A stretch of DNA of 64,000 nucleotides, taken from NCBI RefSeq assembly GCF_001748225.1, contig NZ_BDFE01000017.1:124001-188000 (forward strand), written 5' to 3'. Below the pieces are notes generated by a model that had not been told where the DNA came from, ran no database searches, and saw only the letters and a list, made by a program, of their open reading frames with translations. Positions 13,174 to 62,389 of the stretch are shown here, piece by piece. This stretch comes from Desulfoplanes formicivorans (GTDB taxonomy: Bacteria > Desulfobacterota > Desulfovibrionia > Desulfovibrionales > Desulfomicrobiaceae). The position numbers and the translations under genes are program-made. Within the stretch, counting starts at the first letter, position 1. Each line of letters opens with the position of its first letter.

Positions 13174-15516
13174 ATGCCCTCCTCATCGACCTCATCAGAT
13201 CGGACCGCGCCCCCCGCAGAAGCCCAAAAAATATCCCTGTCCATCCAGGGCATGCATTGTGCGTCCTGTTCATCGCGCATTGAGCGTGTACTGGGTTCAC
13301 AAGACGGCATCTATGAGGCCAGGGTGAATCTGGCCTCGGAATCAGGCACCTTTGCCTTTGATCCGACCAGGGTAAAACTCCGGGACATCAGGCATGCCAT
13401 AGAGGATCTCGGTTTCTCCAGCACGGTGGCAACAGCAGGGGCCAGCATGTACAAAGAACGCCAGGCAAAGAACCTGGCCAATCTTGCGGCCTTGCGCAGG
13501 GACCTTATCCCGGCCTTTGGCTTTGCCCTTCCGATCATTCTTTTGTCCATGGGGCACATGGTGGGCCTGCCCCTGCCCGCCTTTCTCGATCCCCTGCATG
13601 CCCCTTTCACCTTTGCCCTGGTACAGGCTCTGCTCCTTGTGCCGGTCCTCTGGGCAGGAAGACGTTTCTATACCAGCGGCATTCCGGCTTTTTTGCGTGG
13701 TGCGCCCAATATGGATTCCCTGGTGGCCATGGGAACCGGCGCTGCCGTCCTCTATTCCACCTGGAATCTGGTGGAGATCGGGATGGGCATAACACCCCAA
13801 CAAAAGGCCATGGATCTGTATTTCGAATCCGCGGCCATGCTCATTGCCCTGATCTCTCTGGGCAAGTATTTCGAGGCCCGGTCCAAGCTCAAGACTTCCG
13901 AGGCCATCGGGTCCCTGATCAAGCTGACACCTGACAAGGCCATCCTTGTCAGACAGGGCCAAAACGGCGAGGAACAGGTGCTGATTCCCACCCAGGAAAT
14001 CGAGCCCGGTGACGTGCTGCTGGTCAAGCCGGGAGAACGCATCCCGGCGGATGCCGATGTGATTGCGGGCGAATCGAGCGTGGACGAATCCATGCTCACG
14101 GGCGAATCCTTGCCTGTTGCCAAACGCCCTGGAGACAAAGTTGTCGGGGGAACCGTCAACGCAACCGGTTCCTTGACCATCAGGGCTACCCGGGTGGGGC
14201 AGGATTCCATGCTCGCCCGCATCATCCGCCTGGTTCAGGAGGCCCAGGGCTCCAAGGCACCCATTGCCAATCTGGCCGACCGGATCAGTCTTTATTTCGT
14301 GCCCGCAGTCATGGTTGTGGCCCTGGTGGCCGGAGTCTCCTGGTTGACCATCGGCGGGGAGAGCCTTTCCTTCAGTCTGCGCATTTTTGTGGCGGTCATG
14401 GTTATTGCCTGTCCCTGCGCCATGGGACTGGCCACCCCCATTTCCATCATGGTGGCCACCGGCCGGGGAGCGCGGCTCGGGGTGCTTGTCAAAAGCGGTG
14501 GGGCCCTGCAGATGGCGGAACGCATCAGGACCATTGTCTTTGACAAGACAGGCACCCTCACCGTGGGTAAACCCAGTGTGACAGATATTCTGGTCGTGGA
14601 CGACCAGGGCGATGAGGAAGAGATCCTGGGGCTGGCTGCCTCGGTGGAAGGCTCGTCCGAACATCCCCTGGCCCAGGCCGTGGTGGAAGCAGCCAGATCC
14701 CGGGGGATCGCCACCCATGGGGTGGAATCCTTTGAGGCTCTGCCCGGCAAAGGTGTCCGGGCTCGTGTTCAGGGCCGCGAGATCCACATAGGCCATGTCG
14801 CCTACATGAAGTCCCTTGATCTTGCGGGTATGGAAAAAGCGGGCGGACGCATCAGGAAAATGGCCGAGCAGGGCAAAACCCCGGTCCTGATGGCCATGGA
14901 CGGCCGATTGCGGGGAATCATCGCCATTGCCGACAGGATCAGGCCCGAAACCCCCGAGGTGGTGGCCGCATTGAACCGCAGGGGTATTGAAGTGATCATG
15001 CTCACCGGAGACAACAAGACCACGGCCCAAGCCATTGCCCGACAAGCCGGCATCAGCCAGGTGATCGCCGAGGTCCTGCCGGACAGCAAGGTGGCGGCCA
15101 TCCGGGAACTCAAGCAACAGGGAAAGAGAGTGGCCATGGTGGGAGACGGCATCAATGACGCGCCTGCCCTGGCCGGAGCGGATCTGGGCATGGCCATGGG
15201 ATCGGGTATCGACGTGGCCATTGAATCCGGGGATATCGTCCTCATGCGCCAGGGACTTTTCGGCGTACTCACGGCCCTGGAGCTCAGTCGGGCAACCATG
15301 CGCAACATCAGGCAGAATCTTTTCTGGGCCTTTGCCTACAATGTTATTGGCATCCCCTTTGCCGCCGGGATCTTCCACGTATTTGGCGGCCCAACCCTGA
15401 ACCCCATGATTGCGGGGGCCGCCATGGCCATGAGTTCGGTTTCCGTGGTCGGCAACGGTCTGCGACTGCGCTGGTTCACTCCCCAAAAGACGCGAAATGC
15501 CGTTGCTGCGCCCTGA
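13174..15516 (+). CDS. copA: Copper-exporting P1B-type ATPase (CopA-like)
   Basis: A 780-residue heavy-metal P-type ATPase. One N-terminal heavy-metal-associated domain (about 20-87) has GMHCASC with C29 and C32. The transmembrane metal site is C413-P-C415 ([11 protein letters not shown]), the aspartyl-phosphate is D457 in [11 protein letters not shown], the nucleotide domain has the HP dipeptide in [10 protein letters not shown], and the hinge is [10 protein letters not shown]. The CPC motif and the Asn/Met-Ser pattern of the last helices fit Cu+ export rather than Zn or Cd. It stands alone with no chaperone or regulator beside it. Cardiolipin synthase follows after 190 bases. Confidence 0.93.
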
Positions 15517-15708
15517 TAGAGTATAACCATGATCATGAATCCGCAATCCGCTATCCATCCCCCAAGCCCATCCTGGGTGCGACTCGGGAGACCAACCCCC
15601 AGGCTCCGGTTTGCTGCCATGTTGGTTATCAAGGTGCGGTGCACCCATGCGGGAATCTCTCCCCATGCCTTGCAAAAGGTAGTGCAGGGGTGACAGAGGA
15701 GATGGAAC

Positions 15709-17148
15709 ATGTTTGAACGAGACATTCTGGCCCTGTTTGCCTGGCTGGTCACCCTTGTGGAAATCCTGGGCATTGTCACAGCCGCCCACGCTGTCATGCG
15801 GACGCGTACTTCCCAGGGGGCCATCGCCTGGGCCATTTCCCTGGTTACCTTTCCCTGGGTGAGTCTGCCCCTGTATGCTGTTTTCGGACGCAACAAGTTC
15901 AACGGATACGTGCGTCTTCGTACCTCCAGGGACAGAGCCGTCCATCATATGCGCGAACAACTGGCCACCCAGGCCCGCAGCGAAGGATACATTGACGAGG
16001 GGCTTGGCCAACAATGGAAGACCCTGGTCCGCTTGTCGGATATGCCGGTCATGCGACACAACAAGTGCGAGCTCCTGATCAACGGAGAAATGACCTTTGG
16101 GGCCATGTTCACGGCCATGGAACAGGCAACAGACTATATTCTTGTCCAGTTTTTCATCATCAAGGACGATGAACTGGGGCGCCAGTTGGCAGATATTCTC
16201 ATGGCCAAGGCCCGACAGAACATCCGGGTCTGCCTGCTGTACGACGAAATCGGCAGTCAGGGACTGAGTTCTGCCTATATCAACAAGCTGCACCAGGCAG
16301 GGGTGATTGTCGCCCCCTTTCACACAACCAAGGGAAAGGCCAACCGGTTTCAGATCAATTTTCGCAACCATCGCAAGATCGTGATTGTAGATGGCCGGCT
16401 CGCCTTTGTGGGCGGGCACAATGTGGGTGACGAATATGTATCCCGTCACTGCACCTTTGGCTCGTGGCGGGATACCCATGTTCGGGTTGCAGGGCCTGTT
16501 GTCCAGGCGATCCAGTTTTCCTTTGTGGAGGACTGGTACTGGGCACGTGGTGAAATCCCCCAGGAACTGTCCTGGGAAATGACCAGGGCCGAATCCGGCA
16601 ATGAACAGACCCTGTGTATCGCCTCGGGTCCGGCCGATGATGTGGATACCTGCGGACTCTTTTTTGTGGAAGCCATCAACCGGGCCCGCAAACGCATATG
16701 GATCGCCAGCCCCTATTTCGTGCCGGACCAGCGGGTACTGGCCGCCCTCAAGCTGGCCGCATTGCGGGGCGTGGACATACGCATCCTGTTGCCCCAGAAG
16801 CCGGATCATCTGGCCGTGTATCTGGCCTCCTTTGCCCGGTATGAAGAAATCATTCCCCTTGGCATCAAACTGTACAGGTATCAGGAAGGGTTCATGCACC
16901 AGAAGGTGGTTTTGGTGGATGACGCGTTTGCTGCCGTGGGCACGGCCAATATGGACAACCGCTCGTTCCGGCTCAATTTCGAGATCATGCTCCTCAATTT
17001 CAGCCGACCGTTCATCAATCAGATCGAAACCATGCTCAGGCAGGATCTGACACGGTGCAGACAGGTTGATATGAATGATTATCAGAGCCGTTCTTTCCTG
17101 TTCAGGTTTGCGGTCCGTGTGGCTGCCCTGATGTCCCCCATTTTGTAG
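15709..17148 (+). CDS. cls: Cardiolipin synthase (phospholipase D family)
   Basis: A 479-residue protein with two N-terminal membrane helices (about 5-25 and 38-58) and two HKD motifs: HRKIVIVD in the first half and HQKVVLVD in the second, each followed by the GG/GT-N-x-D signature. These are the catalytic sites that condense phosphatidylglycerol into cardiolipin. The length and the N-terminal helices match bacterial ClsA-type enzymes. GGAG lies eight bases before the ATG. It is not obviously in an operon with either neighbour. Confidence 0.93.
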   Translation: MFERDILALFAWLVTLVEILGIVTAAHAVMRTRTSQGAIAWAISLVTFPWVSLPLYAVFGRNKFNGYVRLRTSRDRAVHHMREQLATQARSEGYIDEGLGQQWKTLVRLSDMPVMRHNKCELLINGEMTFGAMFTAMEQATDYILVQFFIIKDDELGRQLADILMAKARQNIRVCLLYDEIGSQGLSSAYINKLHQAGVIVAPFHTTKGKANRFQINFRNHRKIVIVDGRLAFVGGHNVGDEYVSRHCTFGSWRDTHVRVAGPVVQAIQFSFVEDWYWARGEIPQELSWEMTRAESGNEQTLCIASGPADDVDTCGLFFVEAINRARKRIWIASPYFVPDQRVLAALKLAALRGVDIRILLPQKPDHLAVYLASFARYEEIIPLGIKLYRYQEGFMHQKVVLVDDAFAAVGTANMDNRSFRLNFEIMLLNFSRPFINQIETMLRQDLTRCRQVDMNDYQSRSFLFRFAVRVAALMSPIL

Positions 17149-17274
17149 AAACATTCCCCTGCTGTCCCAGGGACATGGCCCCCCATGTCTTCCCTCATCC
17201 ATCCCGTTTGTGCGCACCCCGTCAGAGGGCCGTACATGCTGGCTGCATCTGAAAATACTTGCCGGAACTCCTGG

Positions 17275-17302
17275 GATACGGTTATGGTCTCATAACCGTA
17301 TC
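17275..17302. promoter_or_regulatory. Perfect 12-bp inverted repeat upstream of the octahaem cytochrome
   Basis: GATACGGTTATG at 17275-17286 and CATAACCGTATC at 17291-17302 form a perfect dyad with a four-base centre (GTCT). It ends 69 bases before the cytochrome start. The inner part, TTATG-N4-CATAA, has the 5-4-5 layout of Crp/Fnr-family operators, although the bases differ from the FNR consensus. No T run follows, so it is not a terminator for the preceding gene. Confidence 0.5.
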
Positions 17303-17371
17303 GTACATGCATGGGCCCTGAACCAGCATCAGACCTGCGCTCACCCATGCAAACGCAATGGAGGAGATGGT

Positions 17372-19018
17372 ATGGACAAACAGTGCTGGCCTTTGTTTAT
17401 CATGAAGGCATTGATGCTTCCGGTGCTGCTCTGGTGGAGTTGTGCCGGGACCATCTGGGCGGCCAACGAACCCGACGCTCCGGGACGCACCCTGGCCAAG
17501 CAGATGATCCGGGAGGATCATGAACTCTGGATCACAGCGGATCATTCCAAATTCAAGCAACTCCAACAGCCTTTTGCATCAGGTCCCCAAGTGACCCGGG
17601 CCTGTCTGGGGTGTCACACCGAAGCCGCGGTCCAATTCCACAAGACCATCCACTGGACCTGGAAAGATCCCAGTGACGCCAGCGGCAAGATCGGCAAGGC
17701 GGGCATCACCCTGAACAACTTCTGAATCAACATCAACAGCAACGAGGCTCGTTGCACCTCCTGCCACGCAGGATACGGATGGAAGGACAAAACCTTTGAT
17801 TTCAGCGATCCCACCCTTGTGGATTGCCTTGTGTGTCATGAGCAGACAGGAACGTACAAAAAATTTCCTTCGGGAGCGGGCCATCCCGCCTCGACGCCCA
17901 AACAATTCGGCAAGCAGACCTTCTATCCTCCGGACTGGAACAAGGTCGCCCAGTCCGTGGCTCGTCCGTCCCGGAACAATTGCGGGGTCTGTCATTTTTA
18001 TGGTGGCGGGGGAGACGGCGTCAAACACGGGGATCTGGATTCATCACTGATAAAACCCAACAAGAAACTCGACGTGCACATGGGCCTGGACGGGCAGAAT
18101 TTCACCTGCACCCGGTGCCATTCCACCAGGCTGCACAATATTGCCGGACGGGTCTATTCCACCCCGGCGGCCACGCATCGCAAAAGTCTGCTTGAAGATG
18201 ACCTGAGTGCCAAGATCATGTGCGAATCCTGCCACAGTGCCACGCCCCACAAACAGGGGACCAAGCCCAACGACCATACGGACAAGGTGGCCTGTCAGGC
18301 CTGCCATATTCCGACCTTTGCCCGGGTCAATCCCACCAAGATGGTCTGGGACTGGACCACAGCGGGTCAGAAAAAGGATGGCAAGCCGTATACGGTCAAA
18401 GGGCCTTACGGCAAGAATGTCTACGATACCAAAAAGGGAACCTTTGTCTGGGAAAAGAACGTGGTGCCCGAGTACCACTGGTACAACGGGGCCATGCATA
18501 TAGTAAGTGCTGAAGAAACCATTGATCCTTCCGGAACTGTCAGGCTGACCTGGCCCGTGGGGGACCGGAACATGGACAATGCGCGCATCTTTCCCTTCAA
18601 GGTCCATCAGGGCAAGACACCCTATGACAAGATCAACAACACGTTGGTCATTCCCAAGCTGTTCGGGGCCAAGGGAACCGGGGCCTACTGGCAGGAATAC
18701 GACTGGCAAAAGGCCATCACCGCGGGCATGGCCTATACGGGACTGCCCTTCAGCGGAGAGTACGGGTTTCTGGACAGCGTGTATGCCTTTCCCATCAGTC
18801 ACATGGTCGCTCCCAAAACAGACAGTGTGCCCTGTGGTGAATGCCATGCCCGGAAGGGACGTCTGGCCAATCTGACCGGATTCTACATGCCCGGTCGTGA
18901 CCGGATCACCGCCCTGGACATGGGCGGATGGACACTGGTGGTGGCATCCATCATGGGTGTGATCATCCACGCCCTGGCCCGGATGTTTTCGTTCCGGCTG
19001 CGGAACAAGGAGGACTGA
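17372..19018 (+). CDS. Selenocysteine-containing octahaem c-type cytochrome, tetrathionate reductase family
   Basis: Read through the in-frame TGA at 17723-17725, the frame gives 548 residues, with selenocysteine at 118. A signal peptide (about 1-30, ending TIWA-AN) sends it to the periplasm, and a C-terminal helix at about 517-539 anchors it. Eight CxxCH haem motifs start at C78, C128, C152, C204, C246, C284, C308 and C488, the number expected of the octahaem tetrathionate reductase family. The first haem motif lies before the TGA and seven after it. The residues around U118 (TLNNF-U-ININSNEARCTSC) match a family block in which I recall Cys. The start at ATG 17372 has GGAGGAG upstream. In Shewanella this family reduces tetrathionate, nitrite and hydroxylamine in vitro; the in vivo substrate here is not known. 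A nonsense mutation is the alternative, but one clean TGA with a SECIS-type hairpin and intact downstream sequence makes it unlikely. Confidence 0.92.
17723..17755 (+). promoter_or_regulatory. Selenocysteine TGA codon and candidate bacterial SECIS element
   Basis: The TGA at 17723-17725 is followed by a hairpin with six perfect base pairs: GCAACG (17739-17744) and CGTTGC (17750-17755). The loop is AGGCT. The loop begins 19 bases after the TGA and has G at its second and third positions, both features of known bacterial SECIS elements recognised by SelB. The hairpin lies inside the coding sequence, as it must in bacteria. The loop GG resembles that of formate dehydrogenase messages. Confidence 0.8.
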
Positions 19019-19669
19019 ATGACGAGAAAACCCATGAAAAAAATATATCTGTACACCCGGTTCGAACGTTTCTGGCACTGGGTGCAGGCCCTTTTCATCT
19101 TCATGCTCCTGCTGACCGGTTTCGAAATCCATGGGACCTTTGGTCTTATGGGCTTTGCCAAGGCGGTCTCCCTGCACAACCTCCTGGGCATCACCTGGAT
19201 CATCCTGTTCATTTTCTTCATCTTCTGGTTGTTCACCACCGGAGAATGGAGGCAATACGTTCCAACCACCAAAAAGCTCTTCGAGGTCATCCGGTACTAC
19301 TCCTCGGGGATATTCAAGGGACAGCCTCATCCGGTCAGAAAAACCAGAGGAGCCAAGCACAATCCCTTGCAACGGCTGACCTATCTGGGACTCACCGCGG
19401 TCTTGCTCAGCCTGCAGATGCTCACGGGCTTTTTGTACTATACGTACAATGACTGGAAAGCCTGGGGAATCGACGGGTTCCTGGATCTGGGAGTGCTTGC
19501 GGCCATCCATGTTTTGTGCGGATTTGCCATTCTGGCCTTTGTCATTGTCCACATCTACATGACCACCACCGGGCACACCCTGACCGCCCATATTGCGGCC
19601 ATGTTCAGCGGGTGGGAAGAAGTCGAGGAGGGTGAAGTCGAAAGCTGGGAGGTGCATGAGAGAACATAG
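19019..19669 (+). CDS. Membrane cytochrome b subunit (cytochrome b561/thiosulfate-reductase type)
   Basis: A 216-residue protein with four hydrophobic helices (about 19-38, 50-72, 118-138 and 156-180) and His residues placed to bind two b haems, including H20, H53 and those in AAIHVLCGF and IVHIYMTTTGH. The family feeds electrons from menaquinol to periplasmic reductases. The ATG follows the stop of the octahaem cytochrome directly and the ribosome binding site AAGGAGG lies in the end of that gene, so the two are translated together. The pair forms a complete quinol-to-periplasm reductase. A terminator follows. Confidence 0.9.
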   Translation: MTRKPMKKIYLYTRFERFWHWVQALFIFMLLLTGFEIHGTFGLMGFAKAVSLHNLLGITWIILFIFFIFWLFTTGEWRQYVPTTKKLFEVIRYYSSGIFKGQPHPVRKTRGAKHNPLQRLTYLGLTAVLLSLQMLTGFLYYTYNDWKAWGIDGFLDLGVLAAIHVLCGFAILAFVIVHIYMTTTGHTLTAHIAAMFSGWEEVEEGEVESWEVHERT

Positions 19670-19733: not shown

Positions 19734-19771
19734 AAAAGGTCCCTTGCCGGCAACCCGGCAAGGGACCTTTT
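19734..19771. terminator. Bidirectional terminator, 17-bp perfect stem
   Basis: AAAAGGTCCCTTGCCGG and its exact complement enclose the loop CAAC. The A run on one side and T run on the other allow termination in both directions. It separates the plus-strand cytochrome operon from the convergent ABC exporter operon. Confidence 0.9.
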
Positions 19772-56136: not shown

Positions 56137-58041
56137 CTATTGGCGACGCATCTTGCGACTGTTGCCAATACGCACGGTGAATTTCTGCTTGTCCATGAAT
56201 TCAAGCAGGGGGATGGCGAATTTACGCGACAAACCGGTCAGATCCTTGAAATCTGCCGGGGTGAGTTCTTCCCTGGTGGCAAAAAAATCCGTTAACACGG
56301 TGCGCAATTCCTGGATGGCGCGGGCATCAAAATACAGATCTTCGCTGATTTTGATCAACTGGTTCTCTTCCACCAGGTGGCGCATCAGGGGAAGAATATC
56401 CTTGGCCGAGACATCTAGGGTTTCCTGCACCACCTTGAGGGTGGGCGGAGTCAGACCGCCCTTTTGATACAGGGCGGTGAGCTCCCGACGAAGTTTGTCC
56501 TGATCCGATGCCAGGGAAACCTTGTGTCCGGGAAGATGCAACAATTCCTGGTCCACAACGATCCGTTCCTGTTTGTTCAGCCGTTCCAACACAAAATGAA
56601 AGAGCTTGGGCGAAAGATCCTTGCCCCAGGTGGAGGCCAGCTCGCCCCGGGAAAGTCCCGGACGCATGGGATTTTCCCGGTGAAAAGTTTTGAAAAAGGC
56701 AATGGCCTGATCACACAGCTCAAGCACGAGTTCGCCGGACACATAAATACGCTGGTCCTTGTCCACCAGAAAGGCCTGTTGGCGCCCGCCCAGGGTTTGC
56801 AGAACCTTTTCCAGGGCCTTTGACTCAATATCGGTCATGATACGCAGTTTGGCAAAACTCAATCCGCCCGTGCCCGCCAGTTCCAGCTGGTGAATGACCA
56901 AATCCTTTTCCTGGGCCGAGGCCAGGGTCTCCAAGATGTGCAAATCCCTGGAAAACCGTTTCACCTTGCGCCCCAGGGGATTGATGATGGAGGCGCCGGC
57001 AATGGTCTGCAAGGGCGAAAACGAGCGGATGATGCATCGATCCCCATAAACCCCTACCATGGGCGTTTCAAAACGGACCTGGCAGACAGCGGTCTCACCG
57101 GGTTCCAGATTGTCCCTGTCCAGAAAATAGAGCCTGGCCAGAATCTCCCGGGTTCCGTGATGGAAATGGACCTGGGTGCGGTGCTTGATCCCCTTTTTGG
57201 CCGAAGGCAGGCAGGTGATCTCCAGATCCCAGACCGTGCTGGGAAACAGGGAGTCAGGCTGGGCCAGCATTTCACCCCGGCTGATCTCGGCCTTTTCCAG
57301 GCCGTACAGGTTGATGGCTGTTCGGAGCCCGGCCTCGGCCTCTTCCTGGCTGTCACCGTGGACCTGAAGTCCCCGAACCTTGGTGGTCAGTCCCGAAGGA
57401 TAGAGGACAAGGTCCTGGCCCACCTTGAGTTTGCCCGAGAAACTGGTTCCCGTGACAACGGTCCCATATCCCTTCATCACAAACACCCGGTCAATGGGCA
57501 ATCGGAACAGATCGGACCGCCGCTTGGGCTTGAACGCCCTGGTCAGCCGGGTGATCTCCTGTTTCAGCTCGTCAATGCTCGCACCCGTGTGCGCGGATAC
57601 CGGGATAATGGGAGCATCTTTCAAAAAGGTCGATTCAAGGTAGGAGGCAACATCCTCGGTCACCAGTTCCAGCCATTCCTCATCAACCATGTCCGTCTTG
57701 GTCAGGGCCACAAGACCGGTCTTGATGCCCAGAAGCGTGCAGATTTCCAGATGCTCCCGGGTCTGGGGCATGACTCCTTCATCAGCAGCAATAACCAGCA
57801 GGGCAAAGTCAATGCCTGCGGCACCGGCAACCATATTCTTGACGAATTTTTCATGGCCCGGGACATCAATGATCCCCAGGCGCAGATCCGTATCCAGATC
57901 AAGAAAGGCAAAGCCCAGCTCAATGGTGATACCGCGCTTTTTTTCCTCCACCAACCGGTCGCAATTGATCCCGGTGAGGGCCTTGATAAGGGTTGTCTTG
58001 CCATGATCAATGTGACCGGCAGTGCCCATGATGACAGGCAT
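56137..58041 (-). CDS. selB: Selenocysteine-specific elongation factor SelB
   Basis: ATG 58041 has AAGGAG six bases upstream; 634 residues. The GTPase domain shows G1 [13 protein letters not shown], switch [21 protein letters not shown] and TKTD, with the short insert that separates SelB from EF-Tu. Three beta domains follow, then a C-terminal half with four winged-helix modules that bind the SECIS hairpin (end: GNSRKMRRQ, basic). SelB brings Sec-tRNA to ribosomes stopped at UGA. Its presence supports the reading of TGA 17723 as selenocysteine. Confidence 0.96.
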
Positions 58042-58185
58042 GAAACGCTCCTTGTATGAAAATGGGGATACAGGAAACAACGTGCTCAACAGACAGTGCA
58101 CAGGGGGCAGGACCATGCCCGGGACATGCCGTGGCTGGCATACGACACGGCATCCTGCACACCGAATACTGCGGCGCAACTCGCG

Positions 58186-59598: not shown

Positions 59599-61035
59599 TT
59601 ATTTCTTGTATTCCTTGTCCTTGAGGCCGTCCTTTCCAAGTCCTTCGAACGCCTCCTGCAATGCCTCAATGACCAGACCCATGTGTCGGGAATCAAGGGT
59701 CCTGGGATCAAGGCAGAACCAATCATCCTCAATACGCCCCACCAGAGGCGGATTGGTGGCCAAAAAGGCGTTTTTGAGTTCATCAGCCGACCAGTCCCTG
59801 CCCTTGATCCCCACCAGGGTGGTGGCAAGATCCTGCTCGGGAAAAGCCCCACCGCCCACGCGGGAAACACTGGGAACCAGGGTCAAATCCAAACGGTCAC
59901 TGAAACGCCGTTTCAAACGCTGTTTCATTCGTTGTGCCTTGGCCTTGAGAAAGGAGGCATCCGCTGTGATCATGGAAAGGGTCGGAACATGGGTCCTGGC
60001 CAGTTCCGGATCCAGATACAGCCGCAGGGTGGCTTCCAGGGCGGCCAGGGTCATCTTGTCGATGCGCAGGGCCCGGTTGAGCTGGTTGGTTTTGATGGGA
60101 TCAATGTATTTCTTGCGTCCGACAATAATGCCTGCCTGAGGCCCTCCCAGCAGTTTGTCCCCGCTAAAGGAAATCACGTCCAGGCCCGCGGCAACCGTTT
60201 GCTGCACCGTGGGTTCGGGCATCATGCCGTAGGCGGAAAAATCAAAAAGATTGCCGCTGCCCATGTCCTCGATGACCGGCAGATCGTGCTTGTGCCCCAG
60301 GGCCACCAGTTCTTCCTGGCTCACCGCCTTGTGGAATCCGATGATGCGATAATTGGAGGTGTGCACGCGCATGAGCACGGCCGTGTTTTCGTTGATGGCG
60401 TTTTCATAGTCGCGCACATGGGTGCGGTTGGTGGCCCCCACTTCCTTGAGAATGGCGCCGCTCTTGGCCATGACCTCGGGAATGCGAAACGATCCCCCGA
60501 TCTCCACCAGTTCGCCCCGAGAGACAATGGCCTCTCTCCCCTTGGCCCATGTATCCAGAATGAGCAGGACAGCCGCGGCATTGTTGTTGACCACCAAAGC
60601 GGCTTCTGCGCCCGTCAGCCTGCACAGGAGATCTTCTACGTGGGCGTAGCGGATGCCTCGCTTGCCCGTGGCCAGGTTGAACTCCAGATTGGAATAGTAT
60701 CGGCAGGCATCACTCACCGCCTCCACCGCGCTGTCAGCCAGAATGGACCGCCCCAGATTGGTGTGCACCACCACGCCTGTGCCGTTGAGCACCCTGCGAA
60801 AATGGGGACGGGACTGGGAGCAGACAAAGGAGGCCGCCCTGGTCACGAGCTTTTCCCATGCAAGTTCTTCGGGATCGGTGATCACCTGATCCCGAATTTC
60901 CTGGCGGCAAAGGTCCAGAAATTGGTTGATCTTTTCCCGCTGCATGGGCTGGGAAATCCAGGCAAGCTCCTTGTGGGTGGCAAATGCCTGCAAGAACTTG
61001 TCTACCGAAGGAAGAAGTCTGAACAGATTTTGCAA
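59599..61035 (-). CDS. selA: L-seryl-tRNA(Sec) selenium transferase SelA
   Basis: I choose the TTG at 61035 (reads LQNLFRLLPSVDK), with AAGGA eight bases upstream; 478 residues, the usual length. The long frame upstream to 61293 is GC-rich noise overlapping folC. PLP is bound by Lys in SFSGDKLLGGPQAG; HTNLGRSILA, LEFNLATGKRG and EDMGSGNLFDFS are all SelA features. The enzyme converts Ser-tRNA(Sec) into Sec-tRNA(Sec) using selenophosphate. It lies in the run folC-selA-aminopeptidase-selB. selD and the tRNA gene selC are not in this window. Confidence 0.95.
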   Translation of the reverse strand: MQNLFRLLPSVDKFLQAFATHKELAWISQPMQREKINQFLDLCRQEIRDQVITDPEELAWEKLVTRAASFVCSQSRPHFRRVLNGTGVVVHTNLGRSILADSAVEAVSDACRYYSNLEFNLATGKRGIRYAHVEDLLCRLTGAEAALVVNNNAAAVLLILDTWAKGREAIVSRGELVEIGGSFRIPEVMAKSGAILKEVGATNRTHVRDYENAINENTAVLMRVHTSNYRIIGFHKAVSQEELVALGHKHDLPVIEDMGSGNLFDFSAYGMMPEPTVQQTVAAGLDVISFSGDKLLGGPQAGIIVGRKKYIDPIKTNQLNRALRIDKMTLAALEATLRLYLDPELARTHVPTLSMITADASFLKAKAQRMKQRLKRRFSDRLDLTLVPSVSRVGGGAFPEQDLATTLVGIKGRDWSADELKNAFLATNPPLVGRIEDDWFCLDPRTLDSRHMGLVIEALQEAFEGLGKDGLKDKEYKK

Positions 61036-61138
61036 TATTCCATTCCTTGTTCGTATGGGTGTATCAAATGATATGAAAACAGGACCGTAGGACCTTGCCC
61101 CCCTGCACGCTGCCGCACGTGGTGCACCCAACCTGCTC

Positions 61139-62389
61139 CTACAGCATGTCAGGCCGCATGCGAAAATACTCGCCAAGCAAAAACAGGGAACCACACACCA
61201 GCACCCTTTTGCCGGTCTTGCCAATGACATCAAAAGCCTCGTGCATACTGGAGCAGGCACGAGCGCGGGGACCAAGAAGACGGGCCAGATCATGAGGGTC
61301 CATGGCCCGGGAGTTGTCCGGTATCCCGGGAACCAGGATCAAACCGGAACACAAGGCCCGGACCCTGTCCAGATGATCCAGAAGATTCTTGTCCTTCATG
61401 CAGGAAAAAATCATCACCTCGGGGCCAAAATGCATCTGATCCAGGGATCGGGCAAGGGCTTCAAGCCCCATCAGGTTGTGCGCTCCGTCCAGAAGCACCA
61501 TGGGATCTCCCGGAATGATCTGCATCCTGCCCGGATGTCTGGCATGAGAAAGCCCATGCATACATTCCAAAGACGAAAATGACCACCCCCGGATGCGGCT
61601 GCAAACCGACCAGCCGGCAAGGGCAAGCCTGGCATTGGTCTTTTGAAAGGCACCGGCAAGTCCAAGCCTGATCTGGTCAATATCCAGCATGGCCCCATCC
61701 GGACAGACAAAACCGCCATCACGGGGCATTTCCCTAAATCCGGCCTCTTTTGCATCTGCCCGGGTCCGAAAAATATCGCCAATACCCGGTTGCTGGGGAG
61801 CGCACACCACCTCTCCTCCCTCAATGGCTCCGGCCTTGTCCCTGGCAATGGCCTCCAGGGTTGAACCCAGCACCTGTTCGTGATCCATGCCCACCGGAGT
61901 GACCAGGGTCAGATGATGGGCAAAGACCGAGGTGGCATCCCAGGTCCCGCCAAGACCCGCCTCCATGATGGCCAGATCAACCCCTTCACGCACAAAGGCG
62001 AGCATGGCCATGAGGGTCAACAATTCAAAATAGGAAAATTCCAGCTCCGGACAGGCGGCGTACACATCATTGGCCAGATCCAGCCACGCCTCACGGGAAA
62101 GCATCTCCCCGCCAATGCGGATGCGTTCCCGGGGAGTCACAAAATGGGGCGAGGTAAACACACCCGTGGTATATCCATGGGCAGAGGCAATGGCGTGCAG
62201 AAACGCAGCCGTGGACCCCTTGCCATTGGTGCCCACGATATGGACCAGAGTCAGGCAGGGGTTGCCAAGGTTCAAACGCGCCACGCCCTCATGCACTCGC
62301 TCCAAACCGGGTTTCATGCGGAAAAGTCCCAGGGAATCAAGATGGGCGTTGAAGGATTCCCACGTGGGAAAAAAAGGAGAATGTGACAT
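61139..62389 (-). CDS. folC: Folylpolyglutamate synthase/dihydrofolate synthase
   Basis: ATG 62389 gives 416 residues; a longer frame to 62527 adds no conserved sequence. The Mur-ligase fold shows the ATP loop VGTNGKGSTAAFLH, TSPHFVTPRERIRIGGE, EAGLGGTWDATSVF and VLLDGAHNLMG. The enzyme adds glutamate residues to folates and, in many bacteria, makes dihydrofolate. It starts the operon that carries selA and selB 100 bases further on. Confidence 0.93.
   Translation of the reverse strand: MSHSPFFPTWESFNAHLDSLGLFRMKPGLERVHEGVARLNLGNPCLTLVHIVGTNGKGSTAAFLHAIASAHGYTTGVFTSPHFVTPRERIRIGGEMLSREAWLDLANDVYAACPELEFSYFELLTLMAMLAFVREGVDLAIMEAGLGGTWDATSVFAHHLTLVTPVGMDHEQVLGSTLEAIARDKAGAIEGGEVVCAPQQPGIGDIFRTRADAKEAGFREMPRDGGFVCPDGAMLDIDQIRLGLAGAFQKTNARLALAGWSVCSRIRGWSFSSLECMHGLSHARHPGRMQIIPGDPMVLLDGAHNLMGLEALARSLDQMHFGPEVMIFSCMKDKNLLDHLDRVRALCSGLILVPGIPDNSRAMDPHDLARLLGPRARACSSMHEAFDVIGKTGKRVLVCGSLFLLGEYFRMRPDML

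Follow-up and report, generated by a model that had tools for sequence, protein, structure and literature searches.

A predicted selenocysteine at a nearly invariant cysteine position of an octaheme cytochrome in the tetrathionate reductase family

An octaheme c-type cytochrome gene of Desulfoplanes formicivorans contains an in-frame TGA at codon 118. This codon, with a probability of roughly 0.9, specifies a selenocysteine (Sec118) that replaces a nearly invariant cysteine, Cys64 of the Shewanella octaheme tetrathionate reductase (OTR), at an active-site column of the family. According to the alignment, Sec118 would belong to the segment that leads up to the CxxCH motif of heme 2, the catalytic, lysine-ligated heme. 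The gene lies in a stretch of 64,000 nucleotides of contig NZ_BDFE01000017.1, henceforth called the window, and the replacement had been proposed in an original prediction made from the letters of that stretch.

The octaheme cytochrome gene

The features that define the gene are the following:

17360..17366, plus strand: Shine-Dalgarno-like GGAGGAG, 5 nt upstream of the start codon (sequence inspection)
17372..19018, plus strand: putative Sec-containing octaheme c-type cytochrome of the OTR family, 548 aa including Sec118 (TIGR04315, 1SP3, structure model)
17723..17725, plus strand: TGA, codon 118, predicted selenocysteine, aligned with Cys64 of 1SP3
17753..17767, plus strand: heme-2 CxxCH motif, CTSCH, residues 128-132 (motif scan)
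18023..18025, plus strand: Lys218, aligned with Lys153 of 1SP3 and invariant in the alignment

The TGA of codon 118 is the only internal stop of the frame 17372-19018, as had been predicted, and another TGA (19016-19018) terminates it. Eight CxxCH motifs are found at residues 78, 128, 152, 204, 246, 284, 308 and 488, in the order typical of the TIGR04315 family, and the TIGR04315 profile is matched from end to end (positions 1-440 of 440) with 622.5 bits, the cut-off being 375. The match to 1SP3 has an E value of 2e-128. A structure model (pLDDT 82.6) finds 1sp3 as its sole confident PDB match, with a TM score of 0.87 (normalised to the target) and an rmsd of 2.8; the model predicts a hydrophobic helix near the N-terminus (residues 6-30) and a second helix at the C-terminus (513-547), and the protein would be periplasmic and anchored via the latter. 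Lys218 is invariant in 45 aligned sequences, and its counterpart, Lys153 of 1SP3, is presumably the heme-2 lysine ligand itself. The genome harbors a single copy of the octaheme gene.

Codon 118 falls in a cysteine/selenocysteine column

When the protein was aligned with its relatives, the TGA of codon 118 fell on the Cys of SINNFC in 1SP3, residue 64 when counted along the chain. Among 253 distinct relatives, this column is encoded by TGA in 108, TGC in 100, TGT in 44 and GCC in 1; Cys or Sec is therefore found in 252 of the 253, and Ala in one distant row. As the set was partly gathered by SECIS pattern, the figure of 108 must not be taken as a frequency. The less biased share comes from a phylum sample spread over 395 genomes, in which 31 of the 78 family matches above cut-off have a TGA, one each (hand count), and no internal TAA or TAG occurs in any of these 78. 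Both the recurrence of the codon in 108 of 253 homologues and the fact that the internal stops of these 78 matches are all TGA exclude chance as the source of the TGA. The original prediction had assumed a family Cys close to the catalytic heme, and had proposed to inspect the column of residue 118 and to search related genomes for TGA at the same codon. The alignment bears out the former, many related genomes carry the TGA, and a perfect SECIS hairpin, described below, lends further support to the replacement of the Cys by Sec.

The site lies ten positions N-terminal of the heme-2 CxxCH motif in every one of the 91 non-redundant Sec genes, and in 120 of the 130 Cys genes. Heme 2 is catalytic in the OTR family and ligated by a conserved lysine (PMC11024163), and its catalytic role is also described elsewhere (PMC4484225). 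Most members of the organism's own taxonomic family have Cys in the codon-118 column, so Sec is dispensable for the basic reaction.

Two more distant groups deserve mention. Two cousins with about 28% identity (L076 and L077) have TGA at the homologous column; the RNA 3' of it falls outside the bacterial SECIS limits, yet forms a long stable hairpin, possibly of another SECIS class. In a second subfamily (L229, L196, L260) the octaheme part is embedded in a larger protein that has 13 CxxCH motifs, and many of its members have Sec with a SECIS of the window type.

Two SECIS hairpins built from codons of the heme-2 motif

Downstream of the TGA, the following element was detected:

17739..17755, plus strand: bacterial SECIS hairpin GCAACGA-GGC-TCGTTGC, 20 nt from the TGA to the apical loop, bare energy -7.5 kcal/mol

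The hairpin is separated from the TGA by 13 nt and consists of a perfect 7-bp stem and a GGC loop. Published limits for bacterial SECIS elements are a loop of 3-9 nt, a stem of 4-16 bp, a distance of 16-37 nt from the UGA, a G in the first two loop positions and an energy of at most -7.5 kcal/mol (PMC13188914). The window SECIS lies within these limits (loop GGC, 7 bp, 20 nt), with a bare energy that is exactly at the limit; the 45 nt that follow the TGA fold at -9.0 kcal/mol. The limits are passed by 90 of 91 non-redundant Sec genes and by 2 of 130 Cys genes, while the chance pass rate, taken over every TGA triplet of the window, is 4.2%. Compared with synonymous recodings, the fold after the codon has a mean z of -2.45 in Sec genes and -0.23 in Cys genes.

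Sec genes have either of two hairpin types. The codons for Ser-Asn-Glu-Ala-Arg-Cys form the window type, and those for Asn-Trp-Cys-Arg-Cys-Thr-Ser form the second, AACTGGTGCAGGTGCACCAG, whose loop lies 24 nt from the TGA. Many homologues contain the exact pattern TGA-N12-RGCAACGAGGCTCGTTGCAC of the window type, and 62 of 340 genomes of one class contain it with at most two mismatches. The exact pattern of the second type occurs in 23 of 390 genomes of the phylum, and all 23 matches lie inside octaheme genes already present in the phylum sample. Reversed control patterns gave zero matches for both types (340 class genomes and 390 phylum genomes). Third-base choice within the SECIS of Sec genes is nearly frozen: AAC is used in 90/91, GAG for 65/65 Glu codons, GCT for 62/62 Ala codons, CGT in 64/65 window-type genes and TGC in 89/91. 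A difference is also seen at protein level, as the residue at +8 is mostly Pro in Cys genes (68/120) and Ala, Cys or Ser in 91/91 Sec genes. Our reading is that the RNA element may impose this change on the protein.

Selenocysteine machinery and decoding of the UGA

Two genes of the Sec machinery are found in the window, in agreement with what had been predicted:

56140..58179, minus strand: selB, Sec-specific elongation factor (TIGR00475, 409.8 bits)
59602..61293, minus strand: selA, L-seryl-tRNA(Sec) selenium transferase (TIGR00474, 616.5 bits)

The genome as a whole has selA, selB, selC and selD. Presence of the machinery does not discriminate between Sec and Cys enzymes because tRNA-Sec is also found in genomes with the Cys enzyme; with 65 of 69 genomes positive, Cys-enzyme carriers included, tRNA-Sec was discarded as a useless discriminator. 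The selD gene itself (L276, G000:C17:78963-79883) has one in-frame TGA, and its product is probably a selenoprotein, as known for SelD in other organisms.

If codon 118 were a true stop, caused by a nonsense mutation, gene decay or a sequencing error, a dead product of 117 residues would be made. A lone stop in one genome would fit this explanation, and so would the presence of Cys in the nearest relatives, which belong to the same taxonomic family. Against it, TGA occupies the same codon in 108 distinct genes, a SECIS follows it in 90 of 91, and an internal start would, by inspection, drop the signal peptide and hemes 1 and 2. Furthermore, selection is maintained past the TGA: the median dN/dS, calculated by a crude counting method on 187 pairs, is 0.14 downstream and 0.12 upstream, and the downstream value indicates that the full octaheme protein is under selection. 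Sequencing error and pseudogene are ruled out by the shared TGA column, the SECIS and the downstream dN/dS, and a true stop is extremely improbable. Another possibility is that the UGA is read as a different residue, Cys or Trp. Insertion of Cys would yield a working protein, as the remaining half of the family has Cys in this column; however, the Sec machinery of the genome is complete, the SECIS fits the published model, and the octaheme gene's own terminal TGA acts as a stop just 5' of the next gene. Such read-through is accordingly very improbable.

Taken together, the TGA column, the SECIS, the nucleotide conservation, the downstream selection and the presence of selA, selB, selC and selD make Sec insertion at codon 118 close to certain on genomic evidence. 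SelB and tRNA-Sec would perform the decoding, with the hairpin, which begins 14 nt past the UGA, as their guide, and synthesis of the full-length cytochrome by this route is strongly supported by sequence.

Repeated switching between Sec and Cys

The distribution of Sec and Cys was mapped on trees that are unrooted with regard to Sec gain versus loss; gain and loss are therefore inseparable, and the counts of changes carry no direction. With the Sec and SECIS columns left out, a tree of 221 rows has at least 15 Sec/Cys changes, or 10 if only well supported branches are counted. In a mixture-model tree of 54 rows, 10 changes are needed and 5 are forced by starred branches. These trees indicate that Cys and Sec have switched at least several times in the family.

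Both trees place the window gene among Cys genes from the same taxonomic family (support 95 in the fast tree; 91, not starred, in the mixture-model tree). Horizontal transfer of a Sec gene into this lineage is thus unsupported. The idea that the window-type Sec genes of one subfamily form a single clade with a single origin was also discarded, as it is rejected by an AU test (p 2e-45; quick tree, 37 rows). Near-identity of the window-type SECIS across lineages does not necessarily indicate one origin, because pairing with the fixed Asn-Glu-x-Arg-Cys codons would set almost every third base of the element. Two Cys genes look like recent reversals from Sec to Cys that retain SECIS relics: L259 has TGT 5' of an intact SECIS, and L191, which has a Sec sister, combines TGC with a nearly intact one.

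Cytochrome b partner and genomic surroundings

Two additional features are located 3' of the octaheme gene:

19019..19669, plus strand: b-type cytochrome subunit (PF01292), b561-type, 216 aa, putative membrane partner (profile match; a homologue adjoins in many relatives)
19734..19770, plus strand: strong hairpin 3' of the cytochrome b gene, -31.5 kcal/mol

The ATG of the cytochrome b gene begins on the base directly after the terminal TGA of the octaheme gene. This coupling, the eight CxxCH motifs and the two terminal helices agree with the architecture initially predicted. A cytochrome b homologue lies 3' of the octaheme gene in 17 of 22 second-type Sec genes and in 20 of the 24 window-type Sec genes whose product has a C-terminal hydrophobic helix, a count that scores the window's own cytochrome b as missing solely from read-through past the stop. 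The hairpin 19734..19770 is a probable transcription terminator of the two-gene operon; a terminator scan missed it because its T run is short. The operon neighbors that were examined do not fix the substrate by gene context.

About 70 bases 5' of the start codon, a perfect inverted repeat, GATACGGTTATG-GTCT-CATAACCGTATC, spans 17275-17302 and is possibly the operator of the operon. No other copy was found in the genome with up to 3 mismatches allowed. Further upstream, the N-terminal domain of a CopA-like heavy-metal ATPase (13174-15516, plus strand) weakly matches, below cut-off, a model for UxxU metal-binding (seleno)proteins. An open frame of 1291 codons (13342-17217, minus strand) runs antisense to the CopA-like and cardiolipin synthase genes; profile searches found no family match for it, and it is probably spurious.

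Proposed function of Sec118

Gene order and the known architecture of the family suggest that electrons would pass from the quinol pool to the adjacent cytochrome b and from there to the octaheme protein. Most likely, the enzyme would reduce a sulfur compound, for example tetrathionate. The original prediction had seen in Sec a more nucleophilic or more reducing ligand beside the heme, and a role as nucleophile or heme ligand is putative. In the scheme that we propose, the Sec118 selenolate would attack an S-S bond to form a selenenyl-sulfur adduct, and heme 2 would then deliver electrons for the release of the second product. We give about even odds to reductive S-S cleavage with Sec118 as nucleophile beside heme 2. 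It is favored because relatives reduce tetrathionate, among other compounds, and because the octaheme/cytochrome b pair of Thermosulfurimonas has been proposed as a tetrathionate reductase. The broader proposition is more tentative, and we place it somewhat short of an even chance: the selenolate of Sec118 would act directly at the lysine-ligated heme 2 as its partner in catalysis, polythionates giving a selenenyl-sulfur intermediate, and repeated Cys/Sec conversion in one phylum would have used two unrelated SECIS hairpins made from the codons leading to the same heme motif.

The main alternative is that Sec118 is real and the physiological task is reduction of nitrite or hydroxylamine, either for ammonification or for defense against nitrosative stress, with Sec tuning proton or electron delivery at heme 2 instead of attacking an S-S bond. 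To our knowledge, NrfA-type ammonifying reductases function without a free Cys at the heme, and the invariant Cys/Sec points therefore to sulfur chemistry; in addition, many carriers are probably akin to sulfate reducers, rich in sulfur intermediates. On the other side, purified relatives reduce tetrathionate, nitrite and hydroxylamine (PMC6449678, PMC4484225, PMC11024163). The Shewanella OTR reduces both nitrite and hydroxylamine in vitro (PMC4484225), and its use of more than one substrate weighs against a firm substrate call; a relative from Beggiatoaceae also reduces nitrite, although tetrathionate is reduced faster (PMC6449678). On balance we regard a nitrogenous substrate as unlikely, at somewhat less than one chance in three. 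A different view is that residue 118 has a structural or regulatory role without catalytic gain: it might be a persulfide carrier or a redox switch, or the UGA might couple the enzyme level to selenium. Repeated switching is consistent with this view, as both residues work, and Cys64 of 1SP3 is reportedly modified. The near-absolute restriction of the column to Cys and Sec, and its position ahead of the catalytic heme motif, argue against it, and make a purely structural or regulatory role distinctly improbable.

A large share of the family members sampled in the phylum are selenoproteins. Their activity may therefore be tied to the supply of selenium, and gene callers can report Sec octaheme genes as truncated by mistake. 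The family also offers natural Sec and Cys enzymes, sometimes from a single genus, for comparison at a heme active site whose structure is known. Repeated switching, together with near-identical SECIS elements imposed by the Asn-Glu-x-Arg-Cys codons, makes the family a good case for the study of Sec gain and loss.

Comparison with known systems

Sec in the OTR family is not new, since one table row of a review published in May 2026 gives the family, on the basis of GenBank annotation, as a selenoprotein under the name 'Tetrathionate reductase family octaheme c-type cytochrome' (PMC13188914; accessions TIGR04315 and WP_331457571.1). The original prediction, which knew of no description of Sec in this family, is corrected by that row and holds insofar as the row gives neither site nor discussion. 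The original prediction also expected automatic annotation to split the gene; the listing implies that NCBI annotation handles at least some Sec members. Among open-access papers, no other literature on Sec in OTR was found. The occurrence of Sec at the exact active-site Cys column, the two SECIS hairpins made from codons of the same heme-2 motif and the repeated switching appear to be undescribed. WP_331457571.1 belongs to the same family and presumably has the same Sec site; in the table its Sec motif is 'not available', and SECIS, phylogeny and function are absent (PMC13188914).

In Thermosulfurimonas dismutans, TDIS_1882 and TDIS_1883 are likewise an octaheme reductase and an adjacent cytochrome b with a proposed membrane link, and the portion of the report that deals with TDIS_1882 does not mention Sec (PMC4911364). 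Predicted Sec is also known from c-type cytochromes of deltaproteobacterial lineages with an in-frame TGA that belong to protein families other than OTR: Geobacter GSU2937+GSU2936, described in 2007 (PMC1914089), with five CxxCH motifs in the N-terminal part and a C-terminal part unlike any characterized protein, and the multiheme cytochrome ExtKL / NF040886 (PMC13188914).

The closest characterized system is the OTR of Shewanella oneidensis (SO4144, 1SP3), which has 45% identity, the same fold, eight hemes at matching places, an Asp/Lys pair at 150/153 and Cys64 in the Sec column. The Shewanella enzyme is described as soluble and periplasmic (PMC6449678), and its crystallized chain of 443 residues ends about 22 residues past the aligned region, whereas the window protein has an extra C-terminal helix. 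The other difference lies at the active site: Cys in Shewanella, and a predicted Sec in the window protein.
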